Assembly (NCBI RefSeq): GCF_001921205.1
Contig: NZ_MSIE01000034.1
Span: 1-64,000 of the forward strand
DNA length: 64,000 bases
Source: Actinophytocola xanthii
GTDB lineage: Bacteria > Actinomycetota > Actinomycetes > Mycobacteriales > Pseudonocardiaceae
Direction of reading: 5' to 3'
Within the stretch, counting starts at the first letter, position 1, and each line of letters opens with the position of its first letter. The notes beneath the pieces were generated by a model. That model was not told the origin of the DNA and did not search any database. It was given only the letters and a program-made list of their open reading frames with translations. The position numbers and the translations under genes are program-made. Of the stretch, positions 1,226 through 33,520 are shown piece by piece.

Positions 1226-1915
1226 ATGCAACGACGTACTGACCGGATCCTGCCGCTCGGCCTTGCCTCGGCGTTCACCGTCGTGGTCCAGGGGTTGTCC
1301 CTCGTGGAGTTCCTTCCCGTGCTGCTGGCGCTGCTGGCCGCCGCCGCGTGGGCGGTGGTGGTCGACCTCGCTGCGCTGTGGGTCAGGCGACACGCGCGCC
1401 TGAGTGCGTGGGTGGAGGACGTCCTGGTCGCTCTCGGTGTCACGGCGATGGCGCTGTTCGCGTTCGGCGGAGCGATCGGGCTGATGATGTTGGGGCTTGC
1501 CCTGGACAGCTCGTCGATCAGCGGCGAGACCATGGTGCTGATGTTCCTGCCCAGCATCCCCATCGCGATCGCGGCCAACCTGCCCACCGAGCTGGTCGTC
1601 ATCCCCGGGTTGCTGGTCCTGGGCTGGCGTCGGGGACCTCGTCGGGTTCTCGTCGTCGTCGCCGCGGGGCTCTACCTCGTGCTCCGGGTGTGGACCTACC
1701 TCGTGTTCGCTGGCGACCGCCTCGACCTCACCGAGGCGGAGCGGTCGACGACGCCGTTGACCGCCGCCCAGCGGGAGGAGTTCGCGGCCGCCTTCCACGT
1801 CGAGGACCCGCGGTGGATCCTCAACCTGGCCGTGTTCGTCGTTCTCCTGCTGGCCGCGTTCTTCCCCCGGAACCCGTTGCATCGCCGGGCAACGAGCGCA
1901 ACGGTGGGGCCATGA
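1226..1915 (+). CDS. multi-pass membrane protein of unknown function
   Basis: 229 residues with about five or six hydrophobic helices (near 10-50, 68-92, 105-125, 128-165 and 200-218) and a short polar loop around 172-195 (DRLDLTEAERSTT). I recognise no catalytic motif. Its stop overlaps the start of the following P450 in an ATGA arrangement, which implies translational coupling. It may therefore be a membrane partner of that P450 or simply a co-transcribed gene. Confidence 0.8.
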   Translation: MQRRTDRILPLGLASAFTVVVQGLSLVEFLPVLLALLAAAAWAVVVDLAALWVRRHARLSAWVEDVLVALGVTAMALFAFGGAIGLMMLGLALDSSSISGETMVLMFLPSIPIAIAANLPTELVVIPGLLVLGWRRGPRRVLVVVAAGLYLVLRVWTYLVFAGDRLDLTEAERSTTPLTAAQREEFAAAFHVEDPRWILNLAVFVVLLLAAFFPRNPLHRRATSATVGP

Positions 1916-3261
1916 GGCCGACACGTGGTGTTCTCGACCGTGCCGCCGGGGGACTGAACGCGGTCACCGCGCCGTTCGACCCCGAGGGGTACCTGCGCAG
2001 GCGTCGCGCTCGCGGCGGTGACCCGGTCATCGTCCGGGTGCCGGGGGCGGCGGGGCGGATGGTGGTCTCGGGAGATCCCGAGGCAGCCCGGGAGCTGTTC
2101 GGCGGGCCGGTCGAGCTGTTCGACGTCCCCCGTCCCAACCCGGTGGAGCCGCTGCTGGGGACCGGGTCGCTGATCATGCTGAGCGGCGAACGGCACCGAC
2201 GTGAGCGGCGGGTGCTCACGCCCCCTTTCGGCGGACAGCGGATGCGGGCCTACGGGACGATCATCCAGGAGGCGGTGCTCGACCAGGTGCGCTCGTGGCG
2301 GCCGGGGCAACGGCTGGACGCCCAGCGGTTCGGGCAGGCGGTCACGCTGTCGGTGATCGTCCGCGCGGTGTTCGGCGTCGACGGCGGCTCGCTTGGTGAG
2401 CACTTTGCCACCACGACGGCACAGCTGCTCCAGGGGTACAAGCCCATGCTGTCGGTGCCGGCGCTGCGGCGGACGGTGGGGCGGTTGGGCCCGGAGGCGC
2501 GGCTGCGGCGGCGGTTGGCCGCGTTCGACTCGCTGCTCGCCGCGGAGATCGAGAACCGACGCGGCACCGGCGTCGCCGACCGGGAGGACATCCTGTCACT
2601 GCTGTTGTCGGTCCGCTACGACGACGGCAGCGAGCTGTCCACTTCGGATCTGCTGGACGAGCTGCGCACGATGGTCGTCGCCGGCCACGAGACGACGGCG
2701 ACGACGCTCGGCTGGGCGCTGTACCACCTCTACCGGGAACCGGCCCTGGTGCGGCGGCTGATCGAGGAACTGGCGCCGCTCGGTAATCCGCCACCACCGG
2801 CGGAGCTGGCCGAGCTGCCCTTCCTGCGGGCGGTGTGCCACGAGGCGTTGCGGCTGCACCCGGTCGTACCGATGGTCGCCCGGCGGCTGCTCGCACCCTG
2901 GCGGTTCCGCGGCGTCGACCTCGCCCCGGGCGACACGGCGGCCGTCGCGACCTCCTTGCTGCACCACAACCCCGACGTCTGGGACGAGCCGCTCACGTTC
3001 CGGCCGGACCGGTTCCTGGACCGCGAACCACGAGGGTTCGCGTTCGCGCCGTTCGGGGGCGGGCACCGGCGCTGCCTCGGCGCGGCGTTCGGCGACTACG
3101 AGCTGCGCATCGCACTGGGCACGGTGGTCTGCATGGCCACGCTGTCGATGCCCGAGCGGGAACGGGGTCGCCGGATCCCCCCTGCCGTGCCACGCAACAT
3201 CACGTTCGGCCCACGGCGGCCGCTCATGCTGACCTTCGAGGGGCCGACCGGTACCGCATGA
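1912..3261 (+). CDS. cytochrome P450 (class with FGGGHRRC haem loop)
   Basis: 449 residues. P450 landmarks are present in order: the I-helix oxygen-binding motif AGHETT, the K-helix ExxR as EALR, a PDRF-type meander (FRPDRF) and the haem loop FGGGHRRCLG with the thiolate Cys at residue 388. The open frame runs further upstream, but the ATG at 1912 overlaps the previous stop (ATGA) and gives the normal family length, so I chose it. The haem-loop wording resembles mycobacterial CYP132/135/138-like and fatty-acid-type P450s (family knowledge, not tested). No ferredoxin gene is adjacent. It faces the end of the minus-strand operon with only a 3-nt gap, so a role in the same pathway is possible but unproven. 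Confidence 0.93.
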   Translation: MRPTRGVLDRAAGGLNAVTAPFDPEGYLRRRRARGGDPVIVRVPGAAGRMVVSGDPEAARELFGGPVELFDVPRPNPVEPLLGTGSLIMLSGERHRRERRVLTPPFGGQRMRAYGTIIQEAVLDQVRSWRPGQRLDAQRFGQAVTLSVIVRAVFGVDGGSLGEHFATTTAQLLQGYKPMLSVPALRRTVGRLGPEARLRRRLAAFDSLLAAEIENRRGTGVADREDILSLLLSVRYDDGSELSTSDLLDELRTMVVAGHETTATTLGWALYHLYREPALVRRLIEELAPLGNPPPPAELAELPFLRAVCHEALRLHPVVPMVARRLLAPWRFRGVDLAPGDTAAVATSLLHHNPDVWDEPLTFRPDRFLDREPRGFAFAPFGGGHRRCLGAAFGDYELRIALGTVVCMATLSMPERERGRRIPPAVPRNITFGPRRPLMLTFEGPTGTA

Positions 3262-3264
3262 CGA

Positions 3265-3777
3265 CTAGCTGCTGGTGGTGGGCAGGGGGCGCAGGAGCAT
3301 CCGCTCGAGGTTGTCGGCGGGGTCGTCGCAGTGGTACTCCACCGGGGGCTCGTCGGTGAGCATTCTGGGGAGGAACCAGGGGATGTTGCTCACCACCGCC
3401 CGGTTGCCGTGGTCGCAGACCCAGGCCGACGGGAGCCACTCGAGCTGTCCCTCGGGTACCGCACGCCTACCCGGCCAGGTCACGTCCGCGTCGACGAACT
3501 CCGCGACGTAGGCGTACATCCCGGTGCGGCTCGCTCCGGCGGGCCAGGTCACCGTGCCGACCGCCCGGAGCCGGTCGGCGTGGGCGAGGTCGATCCCCGC
3601 CTCCTCCCGGACCTCCCGGCGAACACACCGCTGCGGCGTCTCCGAACCGACGCGCTTCCCGCCGAGACCGTTCCAGCGGTCGACGAAGGGCGGCCTCGCC
3701 CGCAGGAGCATGAGGACACGTTCCCTGTGGACACAGAAGCAGATGGTGTACGGCAGCGCCGGACGCTCGTCGTCCAT
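3265..3777 (-). CDS. Nudix hydrolase
   Basis: 170 residues from the ATG at 3777; a TTG three codons upstream overlaps the previous stop and is an alternative. A complete Nudix box (G-x5-E-x7-REVxEExGI) spans residues 40-62, with glutamates for metal binding. The N-terminal wording (YTICFCVHRERVLMLLR) is like MutT/8-oxo-dGTP-type members. Enzymes of this family cleave nucleoside diphosphate-X bonds. It is the last gene of the ten-gene operon and is almost fused to the nucleotidyltransferase-like gene, so it may hydrolyse a nucleotide intermediate or side product of that pathway rather than do general housekeeping. Confidence 0.9.
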   Translation of the reverse strand: MDDERPALPYTICFCVHRERVLMLLRARPPFVDRWNGLGGKRVGSETPQRCVRREVREEAGIDLAHADRLRAVGTVTWPAGASRTGMYAYVAEFVDADVTWPGRRAVPEGQLEWLPSAWVCDHGNRAVVSNIPWFLPRMLTDEPPVEYHCDDPADNLERMLLRPLPTTSS

Positions 3778-3782
3778 CGGCG

Positions 3783-5390
3783 TCAACCGCCCGACCCGTG
3801 CGGTTGCCGACCCGCGGTCGCGATCAAGTCCTGTGCCTCCTGGATGGGAAAAGCGGCGTTGAGATAGCCCCCGAGCCTGGTCCAGTCATAGCCGATGTCG
3901 AGCGTACTTCGCCACTCGGCGATCGACGCGAAGGAGGACGGGAACAGCTCCACCCCCACCGCCGCGCGCATGGCCGTGACGAGGTCCTCGAGGTCGGTCA
4001 GGAGCCTGGCCGCCTGGTCGGCGTTCGCCACGCGGAACTCGACCGCTCGCGCGGACTCCGCGATGGGCCGCGGGAGCTCCGGCAGACGCGACAGCCAGTC
4101 GAGTGACTCCTCGGCGGGAGGTTGCGGGCTCACGCCGAACGCGCTCAGCACCGCCAGGCACGCCTGCCGGAACATGCGGCGCGAGGTCGTCTCGACCACG
4201 GGCCACTGGCGACGCCGCGCCGCGCCCTCGGCGTCCTCCCGTGCGTTCTCCACCATGATGTTCGCCCAGACCAACGACATGCCCGCCTCCGCGAACCGCC
4301 GCGCCGCCAGCGGAACGAGGGTGACGAACGGGTCGTGCTCGGTGACCGGCGCCCCGTGCAGGGACAGGATCGGCCGGCGGGCTGTCGGCGGCGGGGACGC
4401 GACCGCGTACCCCCGCACCAGACCGCCGCCCCGCCAGCGCAACCGCAGGAGACCGACCCGGAGGAACTCGGCGATGACCTCGCCCGCGTCACCCGTCACG
4501 ACCTCCGGCAGCGGTGTGTCGAAACGCAGCGATCGCCAGACGTGTGCCGCCTTCTCGTTCAGCGTGAACACGTCTTGGCCGCGCAGCAGGTGCAGGTGCC
4601 GGCCCAGTGGCCAGGTCGTGACGCCCCGGACCCGGGCGAGCAGTACGCGTGCCGGGTCGAGCGGGGCCCCGTCGACGCCGAGCTCGGGAAGCGAGCCGAC
4701 GCAGTGCCGGACGTACTGCTCCGGCGGCAGGTCCGAGCGCTCGGCGGTCTCGAGCATCCGGCGGACCGGCGCCGAGCCGTCGACACGCGCCAGCTGCTGG
4801 GAGATCCACTTGCGTTCGAGGTAGCTCTCGCCGCGCTCGGCGACCCAGGACTTGGCGCCCTGGATCAGCGCGGTGCGGGCCCAGCTCGCGGCGCGGTCCA
4901 CGGCCCCGAGTCCAGCGAGCGCCGTCGCGTACCGGGCGGACTGCCGGGCACGCTGGCGGAACCAGACCACGACGATCCGGGCCAGCTCGTCCTCGGGCAG
5001 GATGTCCCGAACGGCCTTCAGCGACGAAGGGTTGCGCAGCGGAACAGCTCGGACCAGCCGCTGGACCCGGTTCAACGAGTCCTCGGGGATGCCGGCGACT
5101 CCTCGGGGGCCAGACCTGGCGGAGCCGGCGACCGCGCGCGCCAACTCCTCGGCCTGCCGCACGGACCGCACGCGGACCTCGACCCGGCGTCCCTCCACGA
5201 ACACGATGGTGGGCATCGTCGGGAAGTCGTGGTCGCCGGCCTCCAACAACAGGAAGTCCACATCGGAGGAGTCGTTGCCGAAACCCTCGGCGATCGATCC
5301 CTCGATGACCGCCGCCGTGCCCTCCGGTACGTCGATCCCCTCGGTCGCGAGGGTGAGCAGGTGCTGGAGGTGGTCGTGGGACAGGATCAC
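3783..5390 (-). CDS. nucleotidyltransferase-fold protein with a PqqD-like segment
   Basis: 535 residues. Near the N terminus is a minimal nucleotidyltransferase signature, GSxxEG followed by SSDVD (residues 31-45), which supplies the first two metal-binding aspartates; REVRV-like strands follow. Residues about 258-317 (LGRHLHLLRG, FTLNEKAAHVWRSL) resemble the PqqD fold, a peptide- or partner-binding module. The rest (320-535) is unassigned and partly helical. The GTG start at 5390 overlaps the lyase stop, giving tight coupling. Nucleotidyltransferase and HPr-kinase-like genes sit together in some lasso-peptide clusters (family knowledge), but no precursor, protease or cyclase is seen here. 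Transfer of a nucleotide to a small-molecule or carrier substrate is inference. Confidence 0.75.
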   Translation of the reverse strand: MILSHDHLQHLLTLATEGIDVPEGTAAVIEGSIAEGFGNDSSDVDFLLLEAGDHDFPTMPTIVFVEGRRVEVRVRSVRQAEELARAVAGSARSGPRGVAGIPEDSLNRVQRLVRAVPLRNPSSLKAVRDILPEDELARIVVVWFRQRARQSARYATALAGLGAVDRAASWARTALIQGAKSWVAERGESYLERKWISQQLARVDGSAPVRRMLETAERSDLPPEQYVRHCVGSLPELGVDGAPLDPARVLLARVRGVTTWPLGRHLHLLRGQDVFTLNEKAAHVWRSLRFDTPLPEVVTGDAGEVIAEFLRVGLLRLRWRGGGLVRGYAVASPPPTARRPILSLHGAPVTEHDPFVTLVPLAARRFAEAGMSLVWANIMVENAREDAEGAARRRQWPVVETTSRRMFRQACLAVLSAFGVSPQPPAEESLDWLSRLPELPRPIAESARAVEFRVANADQAARLLTDLEDLVTAMRAAVGVELFPSSFASIAEWRSTLDIGYDWTRLGGYLNAAFPIQEAQDLIATAGRQPHGSGG

Positions 5391-6859
5391 GGCGTCACCT
5401 CCGCAGCGCGAGGCCGGTTCCCGCGGGCCAGCCGCGCGGCCATTCCGTCGGAACCCAGCAGCCGCCGCTCCCACAACCCGCACACGTACTCGGTGCGTTC
5501 CGCCGCGAGTCCGGTGTAGCTCTCGGGGTGGACAAGGACGTCGGACAGCCCGCCGAGCGACGAGGCCAGGCGGTCGTCCGCACGCAGCACACCGGACAGT
5601 GCCTCGCCGGAGGACTGCGCGCGCCGCACGGCGGCGTGCACGAGATCGTAGGCGTCGGCATGGCCGGACAACGCGAGCAGCACGTACAGCGCTTCGGTCG
5701 TCACCTGCTCGCCCGCCGCGTCGAGGTGGCGGCGCATTCGCGCGGGGTTCACCCGCACCGCAGCCAGAGCGCGGGTCAGGACGGTGGTGGCGCAGGAGAA
5801 GGCGACGAACAGCTCCACGGCGAACCGGGCCGAGGCGCCGTTGGTGAGGTCCCGCTGGTGCTCGGAGACCTGGTCGAGCAGGGTGGTGACCAGGCGGGGC
5901 GCGAACGACTTCCACAGGCTCTTCACCATCTCGAAGCGGAACGGGTTCGTCTTGTGCGGCATCGTCGACGACCCGACCTCCGTCGCGTCCGGGGCGGTTC
6001 CCAGCTCACCGATCTCGCTGCGCATGAGGTGCCGCACGTCGTCGGCGATGTTCGCCAGCACGGAGAAGCACGACGTGACCGCCCAGGCCAGGTCGCCGGC
6101 GTACTCCGGCGGCACGATCTGGGTGGCGTGTGCCGCGGGCGCGATGCCCAGCTCGCCCAGGACGGCCTGCTCGAGCTCCTCGGGCGAGAACGTCGTGCGG
6201 TCCCCGAGGAGTGTGTGCGCGTTGTAGGCGCCGACCGCACCCGACGCCTTGCCCTTCAGGCAGTGCGCCGCCCGTTCGACTGCCTCGATCCGGTTGCCGA
6301 GCCGGTGCACGTACCCCGCCACGGTGAACCCGAAGGTGACCGGGACGGCGAACTGCCCGTGGGTCCGGCCCACCTGGGGGAGCTCCGCAGTGGCCCGCGC
6401 CCAGTCGATCAACAGTCGCGCGAGGTCCAGCAGGTCCGGCAGCAGCACCTCGATCGTGAGGTCGCGCAGGCGCAGCGCCGCGGCCGTGTCGGTCACGTCA
6501 GACGAGGTCAACAGCAGGTGCACCCATGGGCGGGCGGGCTCGGAGACCCGCCTCCCGACACAGTTGACCAGTGCACGCACGTGGTGCTTGGTCCGCAGCT
6601 CCTCGAGGTAGACCTCCTCCGGGGTGACCTCGTGGCAGGCCGCCGCGATCTCGTCCGCCACCTCGGCCGTGCACAGCCCGGCCTTCGCCAGCGCACGCGC
6701 GAGGGCGACCTCCACCTTGAGCTGGTAGCGGATGTGCGCGCTCTCCGAGGCGTACGGTCGTGCCCGGTCGTAGACTCCGCGGATTCCCTTGTAGTAGCGG
6801 TAGTCCAGCGGCGACACGTCGTCGAAGTCGAAGCGGGGATAACCGTCCACGTCAGACAC
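5387..6859 (-). CDS. adenylosuccinate lyase homologue (fumarase/aspartase superfamily)
   Basis: 490 residues, close to the usual family length. The superfamily signature GSSTMPHKTNP spans 296-306, a THGQ catalytic histidine is at 167, and KHHVR carries histidines at 92-93. PurB normally removes fumarate from adenylosuccinate or SAICAR. Here it overlaps its neighbours by 4-8 nt inside a biosynthetic operon and lies two genes after a PurA-like gene, so a specialised lyase that frees an amine from a succinyl adduct is more likely than housekeeping purine synthesis. Its substrate is inference. Argininosuccinate-lyase-type chemistry in N-N bond pathways is an alternative. Confidence 0.85.
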   Translation of the reverse strand: MSDVDGYPRFDFDDVSPLDYRYYKGIRGVYDRARPYASESAHIRYQLKVEVALARALAKAGLCTAEVADEIAAACHEVTPEEVYLEELRTKHHVRALVNCVGRRVSEPARPWVHLLLTSSDVTDTAAALRLRDLTIEVLLPDLLDLARLLIDWARATAELPQVGRTHGQFAVPVTFGFTVAGYVHRLGNRIEAVERAAHCLKGKASGAVGAYNAHTLLGDRTTFSPEELEQAVLGELGIAPAAHATQIVPPEYAGDLAWAVTSCFSVLANIADDVRHLMRSEIGELGTAPDATEVGSSTMPHKTNPFRFEMVKSLWKSFAPRLVTTLLDQVSEHQRDLTNGASARFAVELFVAFSCATTVLTRALAAVRVNPARMRRHLDAAGEQVTTEALYVLLALSGHADAYDLVHAAVRRAQSSGEALSGVLRADDRLASSLGGLSDVLVHPESYTGLAAERTEYVCGLWERRLLGSDGMAARLARGNRPRAAEVTP

Positions 6860-7949
6860 GAGATGTCGCCACCCTCCGGGCGAGTACCTCCAGGGCTTCG
6901 GCCACCTGGCCGCGGGTGTGCTCCCGGCGCAGGAAGAAGTGGTGCGGCACGCACCGACTCAGGGCGTCGATCACCTTCGCCTCCCGCTCCGACGCCGGGC
7001 CGCCGGCGAAAAGACCCGACCAGTTGCCTGGCGCCAGCTCCTGCCGGAAGGCCGCGACGTTGCCGGTCAGCTCGTCGCGGACCACCGCCGCGCTCACCGG
7101 TTCGACCGACGGCGGCCCGACGCGGCGGTCCAGCAGCGGCCTGACGACAAGTCCGACCGGCGCGGAGCGCCGGACGCCGTAGAGCCTGGACAACTGGTCG
7201 AGCGGCACGACGATCTTCGCCCGCACGTCGGTGTCCGGTGCCGGTCCCAGCTCCGGGAACAGTTCGGCCGTCCCGCGTCCCACGGTCAGTGGATACGGCA
7301 GACCGTGGGACACTGCGCCGCCGGGTCCGGCGCGGACCACCACCCGGTCGTTGGACAGGAACTCCGCTCCCCGGTGTACCAGGAGGTGGAGCAGTGTGGT
7401 GGTCTTGCCGTCGCCACTCTCACCGAAGACGAGCACACCGCGGCCGTCCAGCACACAGGCGCCGGCGTGGACGATCGTCGCCGTCGCAGAGCACCACGGC
7501 ATCAGCACCTGACCCCGCACCACGCTGACCGTGTCGGCCTCGAGAACCCAAGGCCGGGGTTGGCACACCACGACCTCCCGTCGTCCGAGGTGGACGATGA
7601 CCCGGGTGCCGTCCCGTTCGGTCTCGACGAGCACCACGTCGCCGAGCGCCCGTCGCCGAGCCGTGTCCGCCCCGCCGAACACCGCGATCCGCTCGGAGTC
7701 GGGAATGAGCGCGTCGAACGCCGCCGACGCGCCGGACGGGAGCGACGGCAGGCACCACACGTGCACCGTCGAGCCGTCGTCGGCGGGCGGCGACGGACCG
7801 GCGAGCGCCGCCACCGCGTCCAACGGCTCCGGCCGCGGCGCGACGAGCTCGACGCGCAGACCGTGCCACCACAGCTCGGTGTGACACCGGAACGGCTGCG
7901 TGCGCAGCTCGCCGAGCAGCGCCTCGCCGACGTCGTGCCGGGCCAGCAT
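6852..7949 (-). CDS. HPr kinase/PEPCK-like P-loop protein
   Basis: 365 residues from the ATG at 7949, with an in-frame GTG immediately upstream. A P-loop of the HPr-kinase type, GESGDGKTT, lies at 176-184 and is followed by LSNDRVVV, the strand with the acidic residue typical of this fold. The N-terminal 150 residues are not recognised. In bacteria, related proteins phosphorylate HPr, and HprK-like proteins of some RiPP clusters phosphorylate a peptide serine. No HPr or precursor gene is seen nearby. Its stop and start overlap both neighbours, so it acts with the PurA- and PurB-like proteins. The phosphoacceptor is unknown. Confidence 0.75.
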   Translation of the reverse strand: MLARHDVGEALLGELRTQPFRCHTELWWHGLRVELVAPRPEPLDAVAALAGPSPPADDGSTVHVWCLPSLPSGASAAFDALIPDSERIAVFGGADTARRRALGDVVLVETERDGTRVIVHLGRREVVVCQPRPWVLEADTVSVVRGQVLMPWCSATATIVHAGACVLDGRGVLVFGESGDGKTTTLLHLLVHRGAEFLSNDRVVVRAGPGGAVSHGLPYPLTVGRGTAELFPELGPAPDTDVRAKIVVPLDQLSRLYGVRRSAPVGLVVRPLLDRRVGPPSVEPVSAAVVRDELTGNVAAFRQELAPGNWSGLFAGGPASEREAKVIDALSRCVPHHFFLRREHTRGQVAEALEVLARRVATSRV

Positions 7950-9031
7950 CACGACAGGAGCCCGGTGTCGCCGCTGAGATCGATCATCATGTCGGGTTCC
8001 GGGCCCGTGCTGACGTAGCTGAGGCGTCCGGACAGGTCGCAGCGCTCGACGACGTCCCTCAGCCAGTCAAGCGTCTGGGCGGAGAGATCCGCGAGCCGCC
8101 TCTTGCCGTAGTCCTGCCAGTTCCGGTAGTCCAGGAAGGTGAGGGCCACCCTGCTGGGACGGTTGATCGCGAGCGCCTGCTTGAGGTCCTCCTCGGCGAA
8201 CTCGAAGACGCGACGCACCCGGCCGGTGACCGTGGTCCTCTCGAGGATGGAGACCGGAGATCCGCTGCGCCGGGTGACGGTCTCCCAGCTGATCTCCCTG
8301 CCCGCCAGCGGGCCCGAGTTGCCGGCCACCCTGATCGGGTAGGTGCGGAACACGCCGATGATGTCGCGAACCGCGAGCGGGCTCACCGCCGCATCGGACA
8401 GCACCCCCGCGGCGTTGGGATCGCAGTTGGTCGTCATCGGGTAGTACGGCGAGGTCACGATCGACAGCAGGCTGCCCTGGTGTCCTTCGAGCAGGACCGG
8501 CCGGTTCTCGTTGATGTAGTTCCCGATGAACCCGATCGTGTCGGTGAGGTAGGGCTTCAGCCACTCGACGTCGTCGGCCCGGCGGATGGCGGTGTCGCGG
8601 GACAGCTTGTCCATCCGTGCGGCGCCGACCCCCTGGAGGGTCGACCCGTACCGCTCCCACCGGTTCTCCTGGGCCGCCGTGTCGGCGTGTCTGCTGTCGA
8701 CGATGACGACCCGGGGGTCGATGCGCAGCCGGTGTCGCACGTGGACGCCGGCCTGCTCGACCATCGCGATCTCCCTGCGCAGGATCTCCTCGCCGAAGAA
8801 CGCACCGGGTGCGATCACGAGCTCGCACCGGGGGTTGATCCAGGCGCACGGCAGGACCCGCATCGCGAACGGCTCCCCGTTGAAGTGCACCGTATGCCCC
8901 GCCTGGTGCCCGCCCGACCGCACCGCGACGTCGTAGCGGTCCGAGAGATATGCGACGACCTTCCCCTTGCCCTCGCTGCCGGCCTGCAGTCCGACGATCA
9001 CGTCGACACAGGAGTTCTCCCTGCTGTTCAT
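7949..9031 (-). CDS. short PurZ-like adenylosuccinate synthetase homologue
   Basis: 360 residues, against about 430 for bacterial PurA. The N-terminal P-loop reads GLQAGSEGKGK. The Ser at residue 19 sits where PurA has its catalytic Asp13, while the following Glu, the Lys residues and the catalytic His (GGHQAGHT, His46, equivalent to His41) remain; Asn38 is Gln43. The PurA arginine loop (GRRRR) is replaced by ERTTVTGRVRRV. Loss of the Asp and the short length are features I associate with PurZ, which uses dGMP instead of IMP. The family reaction is GTP-dependent coupling of an amino acid, normally aspartate, to a purine 6-oxo group. It pairs with the downstream PurB-like lyase. The substrate is inferred; a protein alignment would settle the subfamily. 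Confidence 0.82.
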   Translation of the reverse strand: MNSRENSCVDVIVGLQAGSEGKGKVVAYLSDRYDVAVRSGGHQAGHTVHFNGEPFAMRVLPCAWINPRCELVIAPGAFFGEEILRREIAMVEQAGVHVRHRLRIDPRVVIVDSRHADTAAQENRWERYGSTLQGVGAARMDKLSRDTAIRRADDVEWLKPYLTDTIGFIGNYINENRPVLLEGHQGSLLSIVTSPYYPMTTNCDPNAAGVLSDAAVSPLAVRDIIGVFRTYPIRVAGNSGPLAGREISWETVTRRSGSPVSILERTTVTGRVRRVFEFAEEDLKQALAINRPSRVALTFLDYRNWQDYGKRRLADLSAQTLDWLRDVVERCDLSGRLSYVSTGPEPDMMIDLSGDTGLLS

Positions 9032-9067
9032 TGGCTTCCTCTGTTCCCCGAATTTCCCCGATGAGTG

Positions 9068-11764
9068 TCAGGACACCGTGTTCTCGTCCGACAGGACGTG
9101 CACCGTGCCCTCGCCACCGTCGACGCGCAGGCGCATGCCGGTCGCGATCTCCCTGGTGACGTTCCTTATCTGTACGACGCACGGAATCCCGAGCTCGCGC
9201 GCCACGATCGCGACATGGGTAAGCGGGCTGCCCCGCTCGATGAGGAGGGCCTTCGCGGCCGGCAGTGCCGCGATCCACCCGGGATCGGTGCGGTAGGTGA
9301 CCAGGATCGCGCCCTCGACGTCGTGCGGCTCCGTGACGACCTTGGCCTCGCCCTCCACGACGCCCGGACCGCACGGCACGCCACGCAGCACCTCCGACCG
9401 CGGAGAGACCACCGCACCGCCGGCGGAAGACGGGTCCCAGCCGGCACGCTCGAGGTTGCCGCCCCAGTACACCGGCCCGTAGGTGGTGAACCTCGGCGGC
9501 GCAACCAGCTCCCGGTCCTGGGCGTGCTGCCGCTTGCGCAGGTCCACCAGCGACGCGAGCTCCCGGTGGGCGATCGTCCCGTCGAAACAGCCGCGCAGCT
9601 CGTCGAGGCGGAGGTAGAAGACGTCCCGCTCGTCGTTCAGCGCCCCGAGGCGGGCCAGGCTCGCGCCCATCGCCCGGATCATCCTCCTGGCCATGCCGAA
9701 CGCCCTGGTCCGGCAGAACCGCACCCGCTCTCGATCGGCGAGGGAGCGCCGGACCCGCCGGCGAACCTGCTGGTACACGATCCGACGCAGGCCGTGCAGG
9801 TGTCTGTCGAGGATCCGCTCGGCGGCCTGGCTGTCGTTCCCGTTCTGCCGCGCGAAGGCCAGTGCGCCGCGCAGCATGACGAACAGCCGCGACGGGTCCT
9901 GGCGAAGGTCCGGCTCCTCCAGCTTCAGCTCGTTCACGCTCCGGTACCCGAAGTCGGCGATGTAGGCGTCGATCTCGCCGACCAGCTCCCGGAGCCCGCG
10001 GTCGGCCAGCGTGGCGTACAGCTGTTCCGGCGCGGTCTCCCTGACCAGGCGGGACAGTTCCTCGTCCGCGCGGATCGTCGCGGCCAGCCGTTCGAAGCGG
10101 TACGCCGGTTCGGCCGACTCCAGCACGCCCGCCGGGTTCGCCACTGCCCACGGGAGCCACCGCGGCACGTCGGGGGGAAGCCATCGTTCGGTCAGCTTCT
10201 GCAGCAGGCCGAAGGAGAGCCCGATGACGGCCTCCAGGACGATCATGGCGCCCCAGCGATCCAGAAGCGTCCGTTCCAGCTTCCTGAACAGCTGGTACAC
10301 CTCGTCAGCCGGCAACGCGTCGAAGTCGACGTCGTCGAACTCCCGGTAGGTCGTGGCGAAGTGCCGGAGAAAGTCACGAACCGTCCGGTCGACCGCGAGG
10401 AACCGTCGCCAGTACGCGGTGACGATGACGGCGCGGTGTGGGCGTTCCTGCCACCGGAACCGTGAGCTGAACGGTCGCAGCTCCATCGCCAGCTCGTCGG
10501 GCAGCGGTTCCGCCAGCCCCATCGACACCTCGAGCACCTGCCGGTTCACCCGGTAGAACGGAGCGAGCCGGATGACCCGGTACCAGTTCAGCAGGTTGTA
10601 GTAGACGCGACCGTGGAAGTAACCCAGCATGGTGGGAAGCCACTCGTCCATCTGCCGCATGCCGTGGCGGGGCACGGCGAGCAACTGGCAGTACTGCCGG
10701 TAGACCTGGTGGTAGACGTGGGCGGCGAAGCTGAACGTCATCGGCGAGGTGATGTCGCTGAAGCTCTCGATGATGTTCGAGTTGTCCCAGATCCGCAGCT
10801 CACCCCGGGGCGACGGGTCGGCCCCCCGCACAGGGCCGGTGACCGGCCTGCTCTGCAGGATCCAGACGGAGTCGTCCGCGATCGCCCACTCGATGTCCTG
10901 CGGCCCGGAGAACGCGGCGACGACGTCGGACGCCACGCGGACCAGGCGAGCGACCTCCTCGCCGGAGAGCGCACTGGCCGCTCGTGCTTCGGCCCCGACG
11001 ACGGTCGTCACGCTGCCGTCGCCGTGCTCGTCCGGGTCGACCCGTTCCCGCTTGTCGCCGACGACGACCTCCCGCACCGCGCCGCTCCGCCGGTCGACGA
11101 GCACGGTGTCGGCGTCGACCAACCCCGACACCAACCCCTCGCCGAGCCCGAGCACCGCGCTGATCATGTACTCGTCGGGGTCGCCGCCGAGCGGGTTGGC
11201 CGTGAACAACACACCGCTCTTGTCGGCCGGCACCATGCGCTGGACAACCACGGCCATGCCGCTGGTCTCACAGGGCAGCCCGTGCGCCAGTCGGTACCGC
11301 AGGGCCTGCGCGGAGTACGCCGACGCCCAGCACCGCCTGACGTGTGCGACCACCGAGTCGAGACCGCCGATGTTGAGGAACGTCGAGAACTGTCCGGCGA
11401 ACGAGTAGCGGGCGCCGTCCTCCTCGGCCCCCGAGGAACGCACGGCGACCCGGCCGGCACCGACGTGTTCGTAGGCCCGCCGGACGGTGGCGAGCAGGTC
11501 GGGCTCCGGGGTGGTGCCGAGCACGAGCTCCTCGATCCGCACCGCGACGAGGTCCGCCGTGTCGGCGGTGACCCCCACGAGGTGTTCCCGGACCTTCTCC
11601 ACCAGGCCGTTGGCGCGGAGGAACCGGTCGAACACGTCGACGCCGATGACCGCCCACTCCGGCACGTCGGCCCCGTGTTCGGTGAGCCGGTGAAGGGTGT
11701 GGCCTTTGGCGCCGGCCAACCGGGCCGCATCGGCGCTCGGTGTCTCGCTGGTGATGACGGACAT
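9068..11764 (-). CDS. PEP-synthase-like / rifampin-phosphotransferase-like dikinase
   Basis: 898 residues. The layout matches the antibiotic phosphotransferases rather than true PEP synthase. An N-terminal ATP-grasp region covers about 1-320 (VAVRSSGAEEDG, ADKSGVLFTANP, WILQSRPVTGP), a long central substrate region follows (about 320-770), and a C-terminal swivelling phospho-histidine domain carries SPLTHVAIVARELGIPCVV with His850. No pyruvate/PEP TIM barrel is visible. Family enzymes split ATP to AMP and phosphate and move the beta-phosphate to a hydroxyl of the substrate. In this operon it could phosphorylate the product for self-protection or activate an intermediate; both are inference. 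The ATG at 11764 gives the expected N terminus. Confidence 0.85.
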   Translation of the reverse strand: MSVITSETPSADAARLAGAKGHTLHRLTEHGADVPEWAVIGVDVFDRFLRANGLVEKVREHLVGVTADTADLVAVRIEELVLGTTPEPDLLATVRRAYEHVGAGRVAVRSSGAEEDGARYSFAGQFSTFLNIGGLDSVVAHVRRCWASAYSAQALRYRLAHGLPCETSGMAVVVQRMVPADKSGVLFTANPLGGDPDEYMISAVLGLGEGLVSGLVDADTVLVDRRSGAVREVVVGDKRERVDPDEHGDGSVTTVVGAEARAASALSGEEVARLVRVASDVVAAFSGPQDIEWAIADDSVWILQSRPVTGPVRGADPSPRGELRIWDNSNIIESFSDITSPMTFSFAAHVYHQVYRQYCQLLAVPRHGMRQMDEWLPTMLGYFHGRVYYNLLNWYRVIRLAPFYRVNRQVLEVSMGLAEPLPDELAMELRPFSSRFRWQERPHRAVIVTAYWRRFLAVDRTVRDFLRHFATTYREFDDVDFDALPADEVYQLFRKLERTLLDRWGAMIVLEAVIGLSFGLLQKLTERWLPPDVPRWLPWAVANPAGVLESAEPAYRFERLAATIRADEELSRLVRETAPEQLYATLADRGLRELVGEIDAYIADFGYRSVNELKLEEPDLRQDPSRLFVMLRGALAFARQNGNDSQAAERILDRHLHGLRRIVYQQVRRRVRRSLADRERVRFCRTRAFGMARRMIRAMGASLARLGALNDERDVFYLRLDELRGCFDGTIAHRELASLVDLRKRQHAQDRELVAPPRFTTYGPVYWGGNLERAGWDPSSAGGAVVSPRSEVLRGVPCGPGVVEGEAKVVTEPHDVEGAILVTYRTDPGWIAALPAAKALLIERGSPLTHVAIVARELGIPCVVQIRNVTREIATGMRLRVDGGEGTVHVLSDENTVS

Positions 11765-11784
11765 CGGAACTACTCCCCTCGCGG

Positions 11785-12702
11785 TCAGCCGACGGTCCAC
11801 AGCAGCGCCTCGACGATGACGCCGAACTGGAGGAGCACGGCGTAGATCAGACCGGCGAGCCCGAGGGCCCGGGCCAGCCGACTCGCCCGGGCGGCCGGTG
11901 GGGCCATCGCCCACTCCCCTGCCGTCCAGGCGATGAGCAGTCCGAGGAGGACGCTCTGGTAGATGATGAAGAACCAGGTCACCGGCAGGGTGACGACGAT
12001 GGTCGCGACACACGCGGCCGCGCAGCACAGCAGCGCGAGCAGGACGGCACGCACGCCGTCGCGCCCGAGGCGATAGGGCCGGTAGTCGAGGTCGGGCGCC
12101 TTGCGCGAGAACTTCCAGAACTCGTAGGCCGCCCAGAACAACACGACCACAGCCGCCGTCGGTGCCGCCGCCGGCGCGACTCCGCCCTCGGAGAGCCAGA
12201 ACAGGACCGGGTAGGCCATGACCACCAGGGGGATGGTCTCGTAGCACACGGCGAGCGGCACCCGTCGGGTCGTCAGCCGGCGCTTGACCCAGAACGGGGT
12301 GAGCACCGTCAGGGCCACCGCGGCGAGAGCGCCGCCGAGCGCCGGTGGGTACAGCAGGTTCAGTGCCACGATCCCGACCACGACGGTGAGCCACCCGTAC
12401 GTGAGCCCGCTCCGGGTGTGCCCGGCGGCACCGCCGTCCTGCTCCAGGTCGTCGATGTCGTCGACGAGACGCAGCTGGAGGAACAGCAGCACGAACGAGG
12501 CGACGCCGAGCACGCCCGTCCACCGCAGGCCGACGGGGCCGACGGCACGGTCGAGGAGCAGCTGCGCGGACACGAACGTCAGCACGATCGCCGTTCCCTG
12601 GGTCGGGAGGGGAAACCGGGACGCCAGGTAGCCCCGCACCGCACGCGATACCGACCCGGTCCGTGGACCGCCCGTCCGTGCGCCTCCGACGGTGTCGTTC
12701 AT
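11785..12702 (-). CDS. UbiA-like polytopic prenyltransferase candidate
   Basis: 305 residues with about eight hydrophobic helices. An Asp-rich loop, LRLVDDIDDLEQD, ends near residue 89 after the second helix, where UbiA-family enzymes hold their first prenyl-diphosphate-binding motif. A second polar loop, FSRKAPDLDYRPYR, fits the second Asp-containing region. The longer open frame upstream overlaps the hotdog gene and is not used; the ATG at 12702 is 28 nt after that gene. If it is UbiA-like, it would attach a polyprenyl group to an acceptor at the membrane. Similarity is by topology and motif only, and the second motif is atypical. Confidence 0.6.
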   Translation of the reverse strand: MNDTVGGARTGGPRTGSVSRAVRGYLASRFPLPTQGTAIVLTFVSAQLLLDRAVGPVGLRWTGVLGVASFVLLFLQLRLVDDIDDLEQDGGAAGHTRSGLTYGWLTVVVGIVALNLLYPPALGGALAAVALTVLTPFWVKRRLTTRRVPLAVCYETIPLVVMAYPVLFWLSEGGVAPAAAPTAAVVVLFWAAYEFWKFSRKAPDLDYRPYRLGRDGVRAVLLALLCCAAACVATIVVTLPVTWFFIIYQSVLLGLLIAWTAGEWAMAPPAARASRLARALGLAGLIYAVLLQFGVIVEALLWTVG

Positions 12703-12730
12703 CCGCCTTCTCCCCGGGAAGTCGTGGATG

Positions 12731-13738
12731 TCAGGTGTCCTGGTGGACGCCGTGGGTGGCGAGAGCGGCGGCCACCGTCCTGCCCTTGCCGTCGTGGATC
12801 CGCACCTCGGCGTGCGCGACGGTCCTGCCGGTCGCGACGACCGCGCCGTCGGCGCGCAGCTCCGCGTCGTCGACGGGTACCCGTCGCAGGTAGGACAGCG
12901 CGATGTCCTGGGTGGCCGCCGTCGTGCCGCTGGGCAGTGCGGTGCGCACGGCCCCGTAGGCCGTGCGTTCGGCCAGGAACGCCAGCACCCCGCCCTGGAT
13001 GTTGCCCAGCGGCGAGGAGAACCACGCGTTGGCCGGGAGAACGGCCGAGAACTCACCGTCCTCAAAGGACAGAATGCGCAGTCCGGTCAGTCGCCCCAGC
13101 GGCGCGGTCGCGAACTCGGCGGACAGGCTGCCGGGTGACGGGTGCCACCTCTCCGGCACCGGAAGCTCGTGCGGCCTGAACCCGACGGCGGCGTCGGGAA
13201 TGGTGGCCGGGTTCGACGGCGGCGTGCACGCCGGTGCGGGCAGCGGGAAGAGCGCGGAGCGGGATGTCGACCGGGCGACGAGCCGGTTGTCGCCGTCCCG
13301 GACGGCAGCGGTCGACAGCACGTGGGTGGCCGTGGTGTGCAGCACGTGCCCGCTCGCCGTGAGCGGACCGGAACCCGGTCGTACCCGGTCGCCCAGCTGG
13401 ATGGAGGTCGACACGGTCACGAACCCGGTCGCGGGAGCCACCGTGGTGTAGACGGCACCGAGGTGTGCGGAGTCGAGCACGACCGCCAGGACGCCCTCGG
13501 TCATCACCCCGCCGCGCCAGTCCAACCAGCCCGTCGCCGGCATGCGGTAGGCGGCTGTGCCGCTGTCCACTGCCTCCAGGGTGATGCCGAAGAGCCGGTC
13601 GATCGGCGGGGCGACGGTCTTGCCCGCGATTCCCCAGCGCAGCTGCTCGAGCCCGGGAAGGGCGGTGAGCTCGGTCGCCCGTGCGTCGACGGACACCTCC
13701 TCGTACGGCGAGCGGAACGTCGCGACCAGCGCGGTCAT
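12731..13738 (-). CDS. double-hotdog (PaaI/acyl-CoA thioesterase-like) protein
   Basis: 335 residues made of two related halves. Each half has a hotdog helix preceded by a Gly-rich turn: GVMTEGVLAVVLDSAHLGAV in the first, GNIQGGVLAFLAERTAYGAV in the second. Each is followed by strands with TTATHVLSTAAVRDGD- or GRTVAHAEVRIHDGKG-like wording. PaaI-type thioesterases hydrolyse acyl-CoA thioesters. The first half has Asp in the helix (LDSAH) and the second Glu (LAERTAYG), possible catalytic acids. The ATG at 13738 overlaps the P450 stop (ATGA). Context suggests release or transfer of an acyl group in the pathway. Confidence 0.8.
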   Translation of the reverse strand: MTALVATFRSPYEEVSVDARATELTALPGLEQLRWGIAGKTVAPPIDRLFGITLEAVDSGTAAYRMPATGWLDWRGGVMTEGVLAVVLDSAHLGAVYTTVAPATGFVTVSTSIQLGDRVRPGSGPLTASGHVLHTTATHVLSTAAVRDGDNRLVARSTSRSALFPLPAPACTPPSNPATIPDAAVGFRPHELPVPERWHPSPGSLSAEFATAPLGRLTGLRILSFEDGEFSAVLPANAWFSSPLGNIQGGVLAFLAERTAYGAVRTALPSGTTAATQDIALSYLRRVPVDDAELRADGAVVATGRTVAHAEVRIHDGKGRTVAAALATHGVHQDT

Positions 13739-15030
13739 CGGCGCCGCGCTCCGGTTCGGGCCGCGGTGGGGGTGAACTCGCACGGCAGCCGCTTGATGCC
13801 GTTGATGAACGAGCTGCCGAGCAGCGGCTCCGGTTCACCCGCCGAGATGTCGGGTAGCCGTGCGAGCAGCTCGCGGAAGGCCGCGGTGATCTCCCGCCGC
13901 GCGAGGTGCGCGCCGAGGCAGAAGTGAGGTCCCGGACCACCGAACCCCACCTGCGGGTTCGGCTGCCTGCGGATGTCGAAGCGCGCCGCGTCGGGGAAGA
14001 CCGACTCGTCCCGGTTGGCTGACCAGTAGAAGAGCAGGACCTTGTCGCCACGGCGGTACCGCATGCCGTTCATGACGTGGTCACGGGTGGCGCGGCGGCG
14101 CATGAAGATCACCGGCGAGCTGATCCGCACGATCTCCTCGACCGCGGTCGGCGCGTGCCGCTCGAAGTCCGCGAGCCACAGCTGTCTCTGGTCCGGGTTG
14201 TGGGTGAGCAGTGTCAGCCCGTGTGCGATCGCGTTGCGTGTGGTCTCGTTGCCCGCGACCACCAGCAGGATGAAGAAGGACGCGATCTCCTGGTGGGTCA
14301 GCCGCTCGCCGTCGACGTCGGCGTTGACCAGTACCGAGACGAGGTCCTCGGTGGGGTGCTCGCGCCGGTGGGCGGCGAGGTCGGTGACCAGCTCGACCAG
14401 CTCGTTGGCCGCGCCGAGCATGCGGCTGCCGATGCCGGCGGGATCGGTGAGGAACTCCGGGTCGAAACCGCCCAGGATGCGTACCGAGCGGTCGATGACG
14501 AACTGGTGACGGGACGACGGAATGCCCATCATGTCGCAGATCACGATCAGCGGGAGCCTGGCCGCTACCTCGGCGACGAAGTCGCACTCGCCGCGCTCGG
14601 CGATGGCGTCGACGAGTCCCGCGGCGATCCGTCGCACATCGCTCTCGATCCGCCCCGTCATCTTCGGGGTGAAAGCCCGTGACACGATGCGCCGCAGCCG
14701 CGCGTGTTCGGGGTCGTCCATGTTGATCAGTGAGCCGAAGTACTGCGCGAACTCCGTTGGCATGTCGGCGATGTTGGTGGCGCCTCCCCAGGAGGAGCAG
14801 AACACCTCGGCGTTTCGGCTGGCCTCGACCACGTCCGCGTGCCGCACGAGGGCGTAGTAGCCCGCGCCGGGCGGGAAGCCGATCTCGGACAGGTCGGGCT
14901 CGGCGTAGAAGCGAGGCCGAGGCTGTGCCCTGAGCTCGGCGAAGGCCGCCTCCCGGTCCGCGAGCGAGCGGCTCCAGAACTCGGTGTCGGACAGGTCGAT
15001 GTCCATGACCGTGTTTTCGTCGCTCGCCAT
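13735..15030 (-). CDS. cytochrome P450, CYP124/125/142-like
   Basis: 431 residues. Motifs seen are AGNETTRN in the I helix, where Asn replaces the commoner acidic or His residue, EIVR for ExxR, and the haem loop GFGGPGPHFCLGAHLARRE with the thiolate Cys at 371. AGNETTRN with PHFCLGAHLARRE is the wording of actinobacterial P450s that hydroxylate terminal carbons of sterol or branched/isoprenoid chains (family knowledge). In an operon with a UbiA-like protein, an SDR and a thioesterase, hydroxylation of a lipid or prenyl chain is a reasonable inference. The ATG at 15030 was chosen over an upstream extension that runs into the SDR gene. Confidence 0.92.
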   Translation of the reverse strand: MASDENTVMDIDLSDTEFWSRSLADREAAFAELRAQPRPRFYAEPDLSEIGFPPGAGYYALVRHADVVEASRNAEVFCSSWGGATNIADMPTEFAQYFGSLINMDDPEHARLRRIVSRAFTPKMTGRIESDVRRIAAGLVDAIAERGECDFVAEVAARLPLIVICDMMGIPSSRHQFVIDRSVRILGGFDPEFLTDPAGIGSRMLGAANELVELVTDLAAHRREHPTEDLVSVLVNADVDGERLTHQEIASFFILLVVAGNETTRNAIAHGLTLLTHNPDQRQLWLADFERHAPTAVEEIVRISSPVIFMRRRATRDHVMNGMRYRRGDKVLLFYWSANRDESVFPDAARFDIRRQPNPQVGFGGPGPHFCLGAHLARREITAAFRELLARLPDISAGEPEPLLGSSFINGIKRLPCEFTPTAARTGARRR

Positions 15031-15043
15031 CGTCGACCTCCGT

Positions 15044-16159
15044 TCAGGATCCCTGAAGCTGCGCGGTTCGGCGGGACACGGTGCGGGGCGGCGGGCCGAA
15101 GTAGCCGACCCGAAGCCCGTGGTCGAGCAACTTCCGTAGATGTGCACGGCCTTCGATCGCGGGTTTTCCGCCGGCGATCTCCCGCGCCACGGTGGTGTCG
15201 AAGAACGCGCGGCGGCGGAAATAGTCCTCGTACAGCACCATGATGCTGCGGTAGTACCGCTGCTCCGCGGCCGTGAGCTGGTCCAGCTGCCAGTTCGCCG
15301 GCGGTATGTAGCGTGGCACGTGGAAGTTCGGGTACTCGGCGAGCACATCACTGAAGTCGCGGAGGGTCAGCGGACTGGCGCCAGTCACGTGAAGCGTCTT
15401 TCCCGCCGCGGTATCGAACCGGTCGCTGACGCGGGCGATCACGTCCGCGACGCGGTCGATGGGCACGAGGTCGATCACGGCGTCGTACAGGCCCGGGATG
15501 GCGCGTAGCCGGCCCTGCGTGAGCACCTTGATGACGATGTACATGTTCCTGAACTCCCGGATCGCACCGGTGCGCTGGTTCCCCACGACGACCGAGGGCC
15601 GCACCACCGCCACCGGCCAGCCATCGGCCCGCACCTCCGCGACAGCCACCTCCGCGTGGAACTTGCTCGCCTCGTAGGGGTTCCCGTGCCGCTGTCCGAG
15701 ATCGAGCTCGTCCTCCCGGACCACGCCCGTTCGGTCGCCGCACACGTAGGCCGTGCTCACGTGCACCAGCGGAATGCGCCGTGAACCGGCGGTGAGGAAG
15801 CCGAGCAGGTGACGAGTGCCGGTGACGTTGACCGACTCGTACCGGGCCGGGTCCAGACCGAAGTCGGTGACGGCGGCGTTGTGCACGACCAGATCGGAAC
15901 GGTTCGCGACGACGCGGCGGATTTCCGAGGACAGGCCCAACCCGGGGTCGGTTATGTCGCCACGTACGACGACGACCGACTCGGGTTCGAAATCCCCGCG
16001 AAACGGTTTCGTCCGAATGCGACGCCCATTGTTTCGAACCAGTTCGCCATTGTCGTGGGTAACCGCCACAACCGCGTGCCCACCGGCGAGCAGCCGGGCC
16101 ACGACCTCGGCCCCGACCAGTCCGGCGGCGCCGGTGACGACCACATTGCGTTTTGCCAT
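15044..16159 (-). CDS. extended SDR, NAD(P)-dependent epimerase/thioester-reductase-like
   Basis: 371 residues. A Rossmann fingerprint, TGAAGLVG, lies at about 9-16, the NNAA-like element appears as HNAAVTDFG, and the active site has HVSTAYVCG followed by YEASK. The closest wording I know is in the extended-SDR group that includes thioester reductases and fatty-acyl reductases (the SKFHAE and VVRPSVVVGNQRTG region). It is the first gene of the minus-strand operon and starts 275 nt from the divergent activator. It may reduce a carbonyl or an acyl thioester; with the hotdog protein and P450 it suggests handling of an acyl or alkyl unit. Confidence 0.85.
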   Translation of the reverse strand: MAKRNVVVTGAAGLVGAEVVARLLAGGHAVVAVTHDNGELVRNNGRRIRTKPFRGDFEPESVVVVRGDITDPGLGLSSEIRRVVANRSDLVVHNAAVTDFGLDPARYESVNVTGTRHLLGFLTAGSRRIPLVHVSTAYVCGDRTGVVREDELDLGQRHGNPYEASKFHAEVAVAEVRADGWPVAVVRPSVVVGNQRTGAIREFRNMYIVIKVLTQGRLRAIPGLYDAVIDLVPIDRVADVIARVSDRFDTAAGKTLHVTGASPLTLRDFSDVLAEYPNFHVPRYIPPANWQLDQLTAAEQRYYRSIMVLYEDYFRRRAFFDTTVAREIAGGKPAIEGRAHLRKLLDHGLRVGYFGPPPRTVSRRTAQLQGS

Positions 16160-16433
16160 GATTACGAACCCAAACCCTCGTCCCAGGATTGGGAGTCAAG
16201 CACAACCCTCTCACCGTGTCAGCCCGCGCCGAACCGAACGAGGCGCGCGACCCGGGCTGCCTGCGCCGATGGTGCGGGTGAACTTCTTCCGGCAGCCGCA
16301 CGAGGCCGATACACTCGCCTGATCGTGTGACGCCGCACAAGGGATGTCGAGCGCCGGTCGTGATCGGTGTCGTTGCGGATCGTCATTCAGGTATGGGCAA
16401 GCCGCTGGTGCACAACCTTGGGGGATGCGGTTG
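16160..16433 (-). promoter_or_regulatory. divergent promoter region between the operon and its activator
   Basis: 274 nt without a convincing ORF separates the SDR start from the StrR-like start, so both promoters must lie here. I looked for the palindromic StrR/NovG-type site (GTTCGACTG half-sites) and did not find a clear copy. A GATACACT element near 16308 could be a -10 box. It is the natural place for the activator to bind, but I cannot define the site. Confidence 0.5.
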
Positions 16434-17432
16434 ATGGCCGGTTACAGCAATGCTCGCCCGTCGGCCATCGGACAGCACGGCAGCACCGTCTGGCTTCCGG
16501 TCGAATCGTTGCGCGGGGCGGACTCGCCGCGGTTGGCCGGCGAGGATATCGAGCACGTGCTGGTGCTGAACGAGATGGAGGCACCGTTCCCGCCGATCAC
16601 GGTTCATCGCGCCACGATGCGCGTCATCGACGGGATGCACCGGTTGTGCGCCGCGAGGCTGCGCGGTGACGACCGGATCGAGGCGCGGTTCTTCGACGGG
16701 ACAGAGGATGACGCGTTCGTGCACGCCGTGGCGGCCAACATCGTGCACGGTCTGCCGCTGTCGCTGCCGGATCGCACGGCGGCGGCGGCCCGCATCGTCG
16801 CCTCCCACACCGACTGGTCCGACCGGCGGATCGCGGAGATCACAGGGCTCGCCGCCACTACCGTCGGATCGATCCGCCGGCGTTCGAACGAAGGCCTCAC
16901 ACAGTCGAACATCCGTGTCGGTCGGGACAAGAGGGCACGCCCGGTGAACAACTCCTCCGGCCGGACGCTCGCCGGCGAACTGATGAGCGAGCGCCCGGAG
17001 CTGTCGCTGCGGAAAGTCGCCAAGGCGGCCGGGATCTCCGTGTCCACCGCCCACGACGTCCGCAAGCGCATTCGCCAGGGCCAGCACCCGGTTCCGCCGA
17101 GGCAGCGGACCGGCGACGACGTCGAGTCCTCGACGACGGGCAAGGCGGCCGATCAACCGATGACGAGCTGCCCGAGGCGGATCCCCACGACCGAGATCGC
17201 GCCGATCCTGCGGCGGTTGCGAACCGATCCTTCACTGCGGTTCAGCGACAGCGGTCGTGAGCTGCTCCGGTGGCTGGTCCTGCACACCGCGGACGTCCAG
17301 CAGTGGGAGCGGCTCATCGACTCGGTACCGGCGTACTCGCGCCCGCTCGTCGCGGAGCTCGCCAGAGGAACCAGCAGGGCGTGGTACGAGTTCGCGAACC
17401 GCCTCGACCAGCTCGGGGACACGGAGTCCTGA
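16434..17432 (+). CDS. StrR/NovG-type ParB-like pathway activator
   Basis: 332 residues from the ATG at 16434, preceded by GGGGG at good spacing; an in-frame ATG at 16425 is an alternative. A ParB N-terminal-like domain spans about residues 18-110 (VWLPVESLRGADSPRLAGED and VIDGMHRLCAA). Two helix-turn-helix segments follow at about 127-150 (WSDRRIAEITGLAATTVGSI) and 191-213 (SLRKVAKAAGISVSTAHDV). This is the layout of the StrR family, cluster-specific activators in aminoglycoside, aminocoumarin and glycopeptide clusters (family knowledge). Its divergent position at the head of the ten-gene operon strongly suggests it switches that operon on. Confidence 0.88.
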   Translation: MAGYSNARPSAIGQHGSTVWLPVESLRGADSPRLAGEDIEHVLVLNEMEAPFPPITVHRATMRVIDGMHRLCAARLRGDDRIEARFFDGTEDDAFVHAVAANIVHGLPLSLPDRTAAAARIVASHTDWSDRRIAEITGLAATTVGSIRRRSNEGLTQSNIRVGRDKRARPVNNSSGRTLAGELMSERPELSLRKVAKAAGISVSTAHDVRKRIRQGQHPVPPRQRTGDDVESSTTGKAADQPMTSCPRRIPTTEIAPILRRLRTDPSLRFSDSGRELLRWLVLHTADVQQWERLIDSVPAYSRPLVAELARGTSRAWYEFANRLDQLGDTES

Positions 17433-33290: not shown

Positions 33291-33520
33291 GACGAAACCG
33301 CTACGCGACCACACATATCCCAAGACATTAAGGAGAAACCGAGAAATTACAGATCACACGAGCAGGCGCAGTTTTGGCGACGCTGTGCAGTATTTTGAGC
33401 GCTTTCACCCCTCAGTAGCCTCGCAAGACCCCTTCAGGTGGACATCTGCTGACCGAACGTGGGATTCCCCTAGGGTCGATCCCGGAAGCGGAGCGTCGCC
33501 GAACCGGGCATCGTGGAGAG
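33291..33520. promoter_or_regulatory. AT-richer divergent promoter region
   Basis: 230 nt between the divergent giant gene and the AAA ATPase. Bases 33300-33400 are markedly AT-rich for this genome (for example GAAATTACAGATC and CAGTATTTTGAGCG), as expected for promoters of one or both genes. I see no recognisable riboswitch or operator. Confidence 0.45.

Follow-up and report, generated by a model that had tools for sequence, protein, structure and literature searches.

PurZ is known as the enzyme of diaminopurine synthesis in phages whose DNA has its adenine replaced, and there it acts together with the PurB of the host. For toyocamycin, a pair of the PurA/PurB type (ToyG/ToyF) is dedicated to the metabolite beside the housekeeping set, and it has been proposed to aminate a 7-deazapurine. 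Toyocamycin is not the only case of such a pair in a biosynthetic cluster, since the formycin cluster also carries PurA/PurB-type enzymes (PMC8724604). For tubercidin, the proposal is that housekeeping enzymes are borrowed (PMC6112128). At the residue level, the catalytic Asp13 is 99% conserved in PurA, and its position is taken by Ser in 100% of 147 phage PurZ proteins (PMC12884076); the residues specific to the PurZ of phage S-2L that contact the substrate are Ser23, Thr273 and Gln308 (PMC8342488). The open-access literature yielded no account of a PurZ-type enzyme paired with a lyase of its own in an operon of specialised-metabolism type, and no paper on diaminopurine nucleoside antibiotics.

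Here we describe a locus of Actinophytocola xanthii with a PurA-like protein that, like the phage PurZ and PurZ0 enzymes (S-2L, phiVC8, Archimedes), has a short PurA fold, Ser at the Asp13 position and a PurZ0-like insertion. Unlike the phage genes, its gene is chromosomal, is accompanied by its own PurB-type lyase and a kinase-like gene in an operon of small-molecule type, and none of the Z-genome partner genes was seen nearby.

Organisation of the locus

The window analysed is a stretch of 64,000 nucleotides whose base 1 is the start of a contig (NZ_MSIE01000034.1; C133 of genome G000), where the gene inventory on the left stops. An initial annotation had placed PurA-like and PurB-like genes one gene apart with an HPr-kinase-like gene between them, and all three open reading frames were confirmed on the minus strand. 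They belong to a tight run of ten minus-strand genes, read from 16159 to 3265, which is listed here with the genes on either side.

16344..17432, plus strand: divergent regulator; HTH match only (HTH_23, 4.9e-06), StrR/ParB-like by eye
15044..16159, minus strand: thioester-reductase-like NAD(P)-binding protein (PF07993, 3.9e-44)
13735..15030, minus strand: cytochrome P450 (PF00067, 3.8e-23)
12731..13738, minus strand: double hotdog thioesterase-like protein (4HBT, 4.6e-14)
11785..12702, minus strand: UbiA-like membrane protein; weak match, below cut-off (PF01040, 0.0011); homologues in type I clusters
9068..11764, minus strand: PEP-synthase-like phosphotransferase, 898 aa (PPDK_N and PEP-utilizers domains)
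7949..9031, minus strand: putative PurZ-type (PurA-like) synthetase, 360 aa (PF00709, 4e-49; phrog_1211, 216 bits; motif alignment, tree and model)
6852..7952, minus strand: HPrK-like P-loop protein, 366 aa (Hpr_kinase_C, 5.9e-05, residues 156-207; HprK_rel_B, 9e-10)
5387..6859, minus strand: PurB-like lyase, 490 aa (PF00206, 2.6e-39; ASL_C, 8.7e-11)
3783..5390, minus strand: nucleotidyltransferase-like protein, 535 aa; weak nucleotidyltransferase match only; core gene of a cluster family (below)
3265..3786, minus strand: NUDIX hydrolase, 173 aa (PF00293, 7e-10)
1912..3261, plus strand: second cytochrome P450, possibly in the cluster (PF00067, 1.4e-60)

From the reductase to the NUDIX gene the intergenic distances are 13, -4, 28, 20, 36, -4, -8, -4 and -4 bases, the gap of 36 bases being that between the PEP-synthase-like gene and the PurA-like gene that follows it. 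The HPrK-like gene overlaps both of its neighbours, as had been claimed, by 4 bases on the PurA-like side (GTGA; 1 base if an ATG start is used instead) and by 8 bases on the PurB-like side. The overlaps behind the proposed coupling of the trio were therefore borne out, but the chain is longer than had been supposed: the PurB-like stop overlaps the nucleotidyltransferase-like start by 4 bases, and the latter gene overlaps the NUDIX gene by another 4, given a TTG start, so that the coupled chain, running from 9031 to 3265, comprises as many as five genes. It is plausible from the overlaps that the three proteins are made in fixed ratio. Their frames are intact and their codon usage is host-like.

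The cluster is probably of natural-product type, because P450, reductase, hotdog and PEP-synthase-like genes are present. As a guess, the NUDIX protein might provide or trim a nucleotide. The middle part of the nucleotidyltransferase-like protein, judged by eye, is possibly PqqD-like, and a viral scan with this protein gave no match.

The PurA-like protein

Alignment placed Ser19 (motif GLQAGSEGKGK) at the position of the catalytic Asp13 and Gln43 at that of Asn38 of PurA. The change from Asp13 to Ser points to a 2-amino-6-oxopurine (guanine-type) nucleotide as the likely substrate. Two of the S-2L PurZ-specific residues, Ser23 and Thr273, are both present, and the Gln308 position is Asp. The protein is 25-35% identical to phage PurZ and PurZ0 and carries an insertion, AGNSGPLAGREISW, resembling that of PurZ0; against the curated PurZ profile NF038379 it scored 187.7 bits, below the cut-off of 300. 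The TxLD motif is kept, as is TVTGRVRR, which includes the Arg303 position, and at both sites the protein is PurA-like, so that its nucleotide preferences appear uncertain; GTP as energy donor would be compatible with the retained TxLD motif. At the Arg303 position the phage PurZ and PurZ0 sequences compared have Lys or Leu. Retention of Arg303 was considered as proof of a ribonucleotide substrate, an argument that was dropped because the relatives L076 and L156 also carry Arg; the position therefore does not tell ribose from deoxyribose substrates. Gln at the Asn38 position, which could change substrate or activity, is common to the window protein, L076, L156, L159, L161, L166 and the archaeal L078-L081.

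In a tree of 45 sequences the window protein joined viral or probably viral sequences (support 98/92) and then two more viral ones (99/99), in a clade that is uncharacterised and distinct from the characterised PurZ and PurZ0 subgroups. The PurA proteins with Asp13 formed a separate clade (100/100), and forcing the window protein among them cost 46 log-likelihood units and was rejected (p-AU 0.0005). One of its relatives, L076, comes from a Hespellia MAG and is probably phage sequence, because the genes around it, by inspection thymidylate-kinase-like and NrdD-like, correspond to those on the viral contig L156. The AlphaFold model of the protein is confident (mean pLDDT 93.9) and superposes on adenylosuccinate synthetases with Z scores of 38-48, which argues that the PurA-like match is not due to chance. 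The fold matches include P. horikoshii PurA (5k7x, Z 47.8) and PurZ0 (Z 45.4), and the modelled fold by itself cannot tell PurA from PurZ. Taken on its sequence, the protein is of PurZ type rather than an ordinary PurA.

A full-length housekeeping PurA with Asp13 (604 bits) is encoded on another contig of the genome (C159), likewise an actinobacterial-type PurB, and the window pair is therefore additional. The remaining lyase-superfamily matches in the genome were, by sequence inspection, fumarase, argininosuccinate lyase and PcaB. With the PurA-like protein as query, a single-protein scan of GTDB genomes found no relative. Beyond its own genome there were no matches at E <= 1e-22 among 394 class-level genomes, and in the order sample all matches outside its own genome were at housekeeping level, 9.5e-18 or weaker. 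The gene is thus rare in its group.

The PurB-like and HPrK-like proteins

The PurB-like protein retains in alignment the N-terminal Arg-Tyr, the first catalytic His, THGQ, the Gln of TQI, the loop GSSTMPHKTNP (GSSxMPxKxNP) and two Arg of the phosphate region; we take the roles of these residues from what is generally held of adenylosuccinate lyases. Two positions differ, His replacing the Asp after the first His and Gly replacing one phosphate-loop Ser, and these changes could shift substrate or activity. The protein scored 251.6 bits against the curated equivalog TIGR00928, below the cut-off of 326.2. The closest relative found, at 38.5% identity, was a Lokiarchaeal PurB (contig L082), whose gene lies 1.7 kb downstream of one for a PurZ-like protein. 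In a small tree built from 11 sequences, the two PurB-type proteins were sisters (98/97). Among 296 genomes sampled in the class, identity never exceeded 34%, and a viral scan with the PurB pair gave no match.

The match of the HPrK-like protein to the HPr kinase C-terminal domain is confined to the P-loop region and falls below the Pfam cut-off. It scored 25 bits against the curated TIGR00679 (cut-off 240), a full-length HPr(Ser) kinase match is absent, and a FomB-family match is weak. We suspect a small-molecule kinase, which is a guess from sequence. Matches occur in 46 of 390 genomes of the family, its own included, and no PurA, PurB or nucleotidyltransferase homologue was seen at the 15 loci inspected. 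A lasso-peptide reading, in which HPrK, PqqD and nucleotidyltransferase proteins are known, was set aside since no lasso cyclase was recognised.

The three genes fill a slot in a conserved cluster family

Relatives of the nucleotidyltransferase-like gene were found in 16 other actinobacterial genomes, in 17 clusters (L212-L216 and L235-L246), for each of which 17-20 kb was inspected. All 17 have the reductase and the PEP-synthase-like gene, the latter at 43-54% identity. The PEP-like and nucleotidyltransferase genes are adjacent in ten of them, with an estimated spacer of -21 to 42 bases, and in the other seven an AMP-ligase gene of about 1.7 kb lies between the two. Exactly the PurA-like, HPrK-like and PurB-like genes fill this slot in the window, whereas homologues of PurA, PurB and HPrK were found in none of the 17 clusters within the inspected 17-20 kb, and there was no syntenic relative with the three genes.

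Because the flanking genes are kept while the 17 clusters are without PurA, PurB and the kinase, the three genes have the look of a cassette, apparently inserted as one block. Insertion in the lineage of the window would be the simplest account, and a 17-fold loss from the relatives is formally possible. No foreign base composition was found as a sign of insertion, the cassette being codon-matched. Finding the slot empty, or occupied by an AMP-ligase or by PurZ-HPrK-PurB, would be expected if it sets the building block.

We found no paper on this cluster family in the open-access literature. Its members also carry UbiA-like genes, as the window operon does, and many have NDK-like and AfsA-like genes; the nucleotidyltransferase-like gene is sometimes fused to an AMP-ligase. 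In one cluster (L246, genome G852) the nucleotidyltransferase and PEP-like genes are broken across several frames, through decay or assembly error.

A proposed function for the cassette

The initial annotation had read the pair as a module that adds aspartate to, and releases fumarate from, a non-canonical substrate. This stands in so far as a housekeeping pair exists elsewhere and most of the catalytic machinery is kept; what it missed is the PurZ type of the first enzyme and the cassette. The chemistry would follow from the two enzyme families, and the guanine-type substrate, which is less certain, from the PurZ-type residues and the placement in the tree. On balance we think it probable that the PurZ-type and PurB-type proteins form a dedicated two-step amination of a guanine-type nucleotide, set as a cassette in the cluster and feeding a specialised metabolite. 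As with phage PurZ and host PurB, the PurZ-type enzyme would phosphorylate O6 of a 2-amino-6-oxopurine nucleotide, with ATP or GTP, aspartate would displace the phosphate, and the lyase would release fumarate to leave a 6-amino group and hence a 2,6-diaminopurine nucleotide. An intermediate or the product may be phosphorylated by the HPrK-like protein, and the aminated nucleotide would likely serve as a building block or decoration of the product of the cluster.

A more specific version, in which a phage-derived PurZ-type enzyme, a PurB-type lyase and a kinase were recruited as a plug-in cassette and the strain makes a small molecule containing 2,6-diaminopurine, is put forward tentatively, as something short of probable. 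If true, it would place a diaminopurine pathway outside phage DNA, with the same PurZ chemistry used for another purpose, offer a pair of enzymes with which guanine nucleotides could be turned into diaminopurine nucleotides, and mark the cluster family for product isolation. With the 17 cassette-free clusters as comparison the idea is directly testable.

It is rather unlikely that the nucleotide aminated by the pair instead lacks a 2-amino group, being IMP-like or carrying an otherwise modified 6-oxo heterocycle, so that Ser19 reflects ancestry and not a guanine substrate. The TxLD and Arg303 positions are indeed PurA-like and Gln at the Asn38 position is unusual, and pairs of PurA/PurB type are known in nucleoside clusters (L042; PMC8724604). 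However, the ToyG-like protein of L042 retains Asp13 and groups in the Asp13 clade, unlike the window protein, and in the operon of the window Pfam and NCBIfam gave no recognisable genes for building a deazapurine or any other base, with no GTP cyclohydrolase, QueC/QueD/QueE-type or pyrazolopyrimidine gene among those of the operon, on a contig that ends at base 1.

We regard as improbable a role in defence or DNA modification, for which the PurZ-type enzyme would supply a diaminopurine deoxynucleotide or signal, as is suspected of the many PurZ-like systems encoded by cells, its position in the operon being incidental. Cell-encoded PurA-like genes with Ser13 are widespread (348 contigs), with dNK, DCD-like or kinase partners, but no dNK, DCD-like, polymerase or phage gene was seen near the window pair, its frames overlap those of operon neighbours with matched codon usage, and its PurA-like protein falls in a different clade from those systems. 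An ordinary redundant or decayed, inactive PurA/PurB pair would share the two superfamilies and might explain some active-site substitutions, but it is equally improbable given the full housekeeping set on C159, the loss of Asp13, the placement outside PurA, the lack of a close relative of the PurB-like protein in the 296 genomes sampled in the class and the intact frames.

Related gene sets

The cell-encoded PurZ-like systems resemble the window in having a PurA-like protein with Ser13 in a cell genome, and one of them, L082, supplies the sister of the window's PurB-like protein among the sequences compared. They differ in their partner genes and tree clades, and their PurZ-like proteins are about 36-40% identical to that of the window. 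One bacterial and archaeal set (L098, L082, L088, L093, L097, L099, L100, L113 and others) consists of an RNase_H_2/DUF429 gene, to which a P-loop kinase or PHP-like part is added in some cases, a PurZ-like gene with Ser13, a dCTP-deaminase-like (DCD-like) gene with a membrane segment, and a deoxynucleoside kinase (dNK) gene; the DCD-like gene adjoins the PurZ-like gene in 38 of 87 loci. This set resembles a nucleotide or defence system that has yet to be described.

A second set, at 31 of the 87 loci (L039, L040, L107, L108, L127, L133, L146 and others), has a kinase-PurZ fusion of about 540 aa with a DUF7002-type gene after it; an IrrE-peptidase and macro-domain gene often comes before the fusion (19 loci), and on some rhizobial plasmids this set lies near UvrD, AbiJ and RelA/SpoT genes. 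The DPANN archaea L078-L081 have a chromosomal PurZ-like gene with Ser13/Gln38, which in L078 is followed by ribosomal-protein-like genes and in L079-L081 has nearby a gene for a NUDIX-like protein whose N-terminal part is regulator-like. The L042 locus (7363-15711, R. leguminosarum plasmid pCC283b_4) is a toyocamycin/queuosine-type set that includes folE, the PurA-like gene with Asp13, purB, queE, IMPDH, nitrile hydratase and queC. Elsewhere in the window, 22215-33323 on the minus strand is a single open reading frame of 3702 aa with a GC3 of 0.95.
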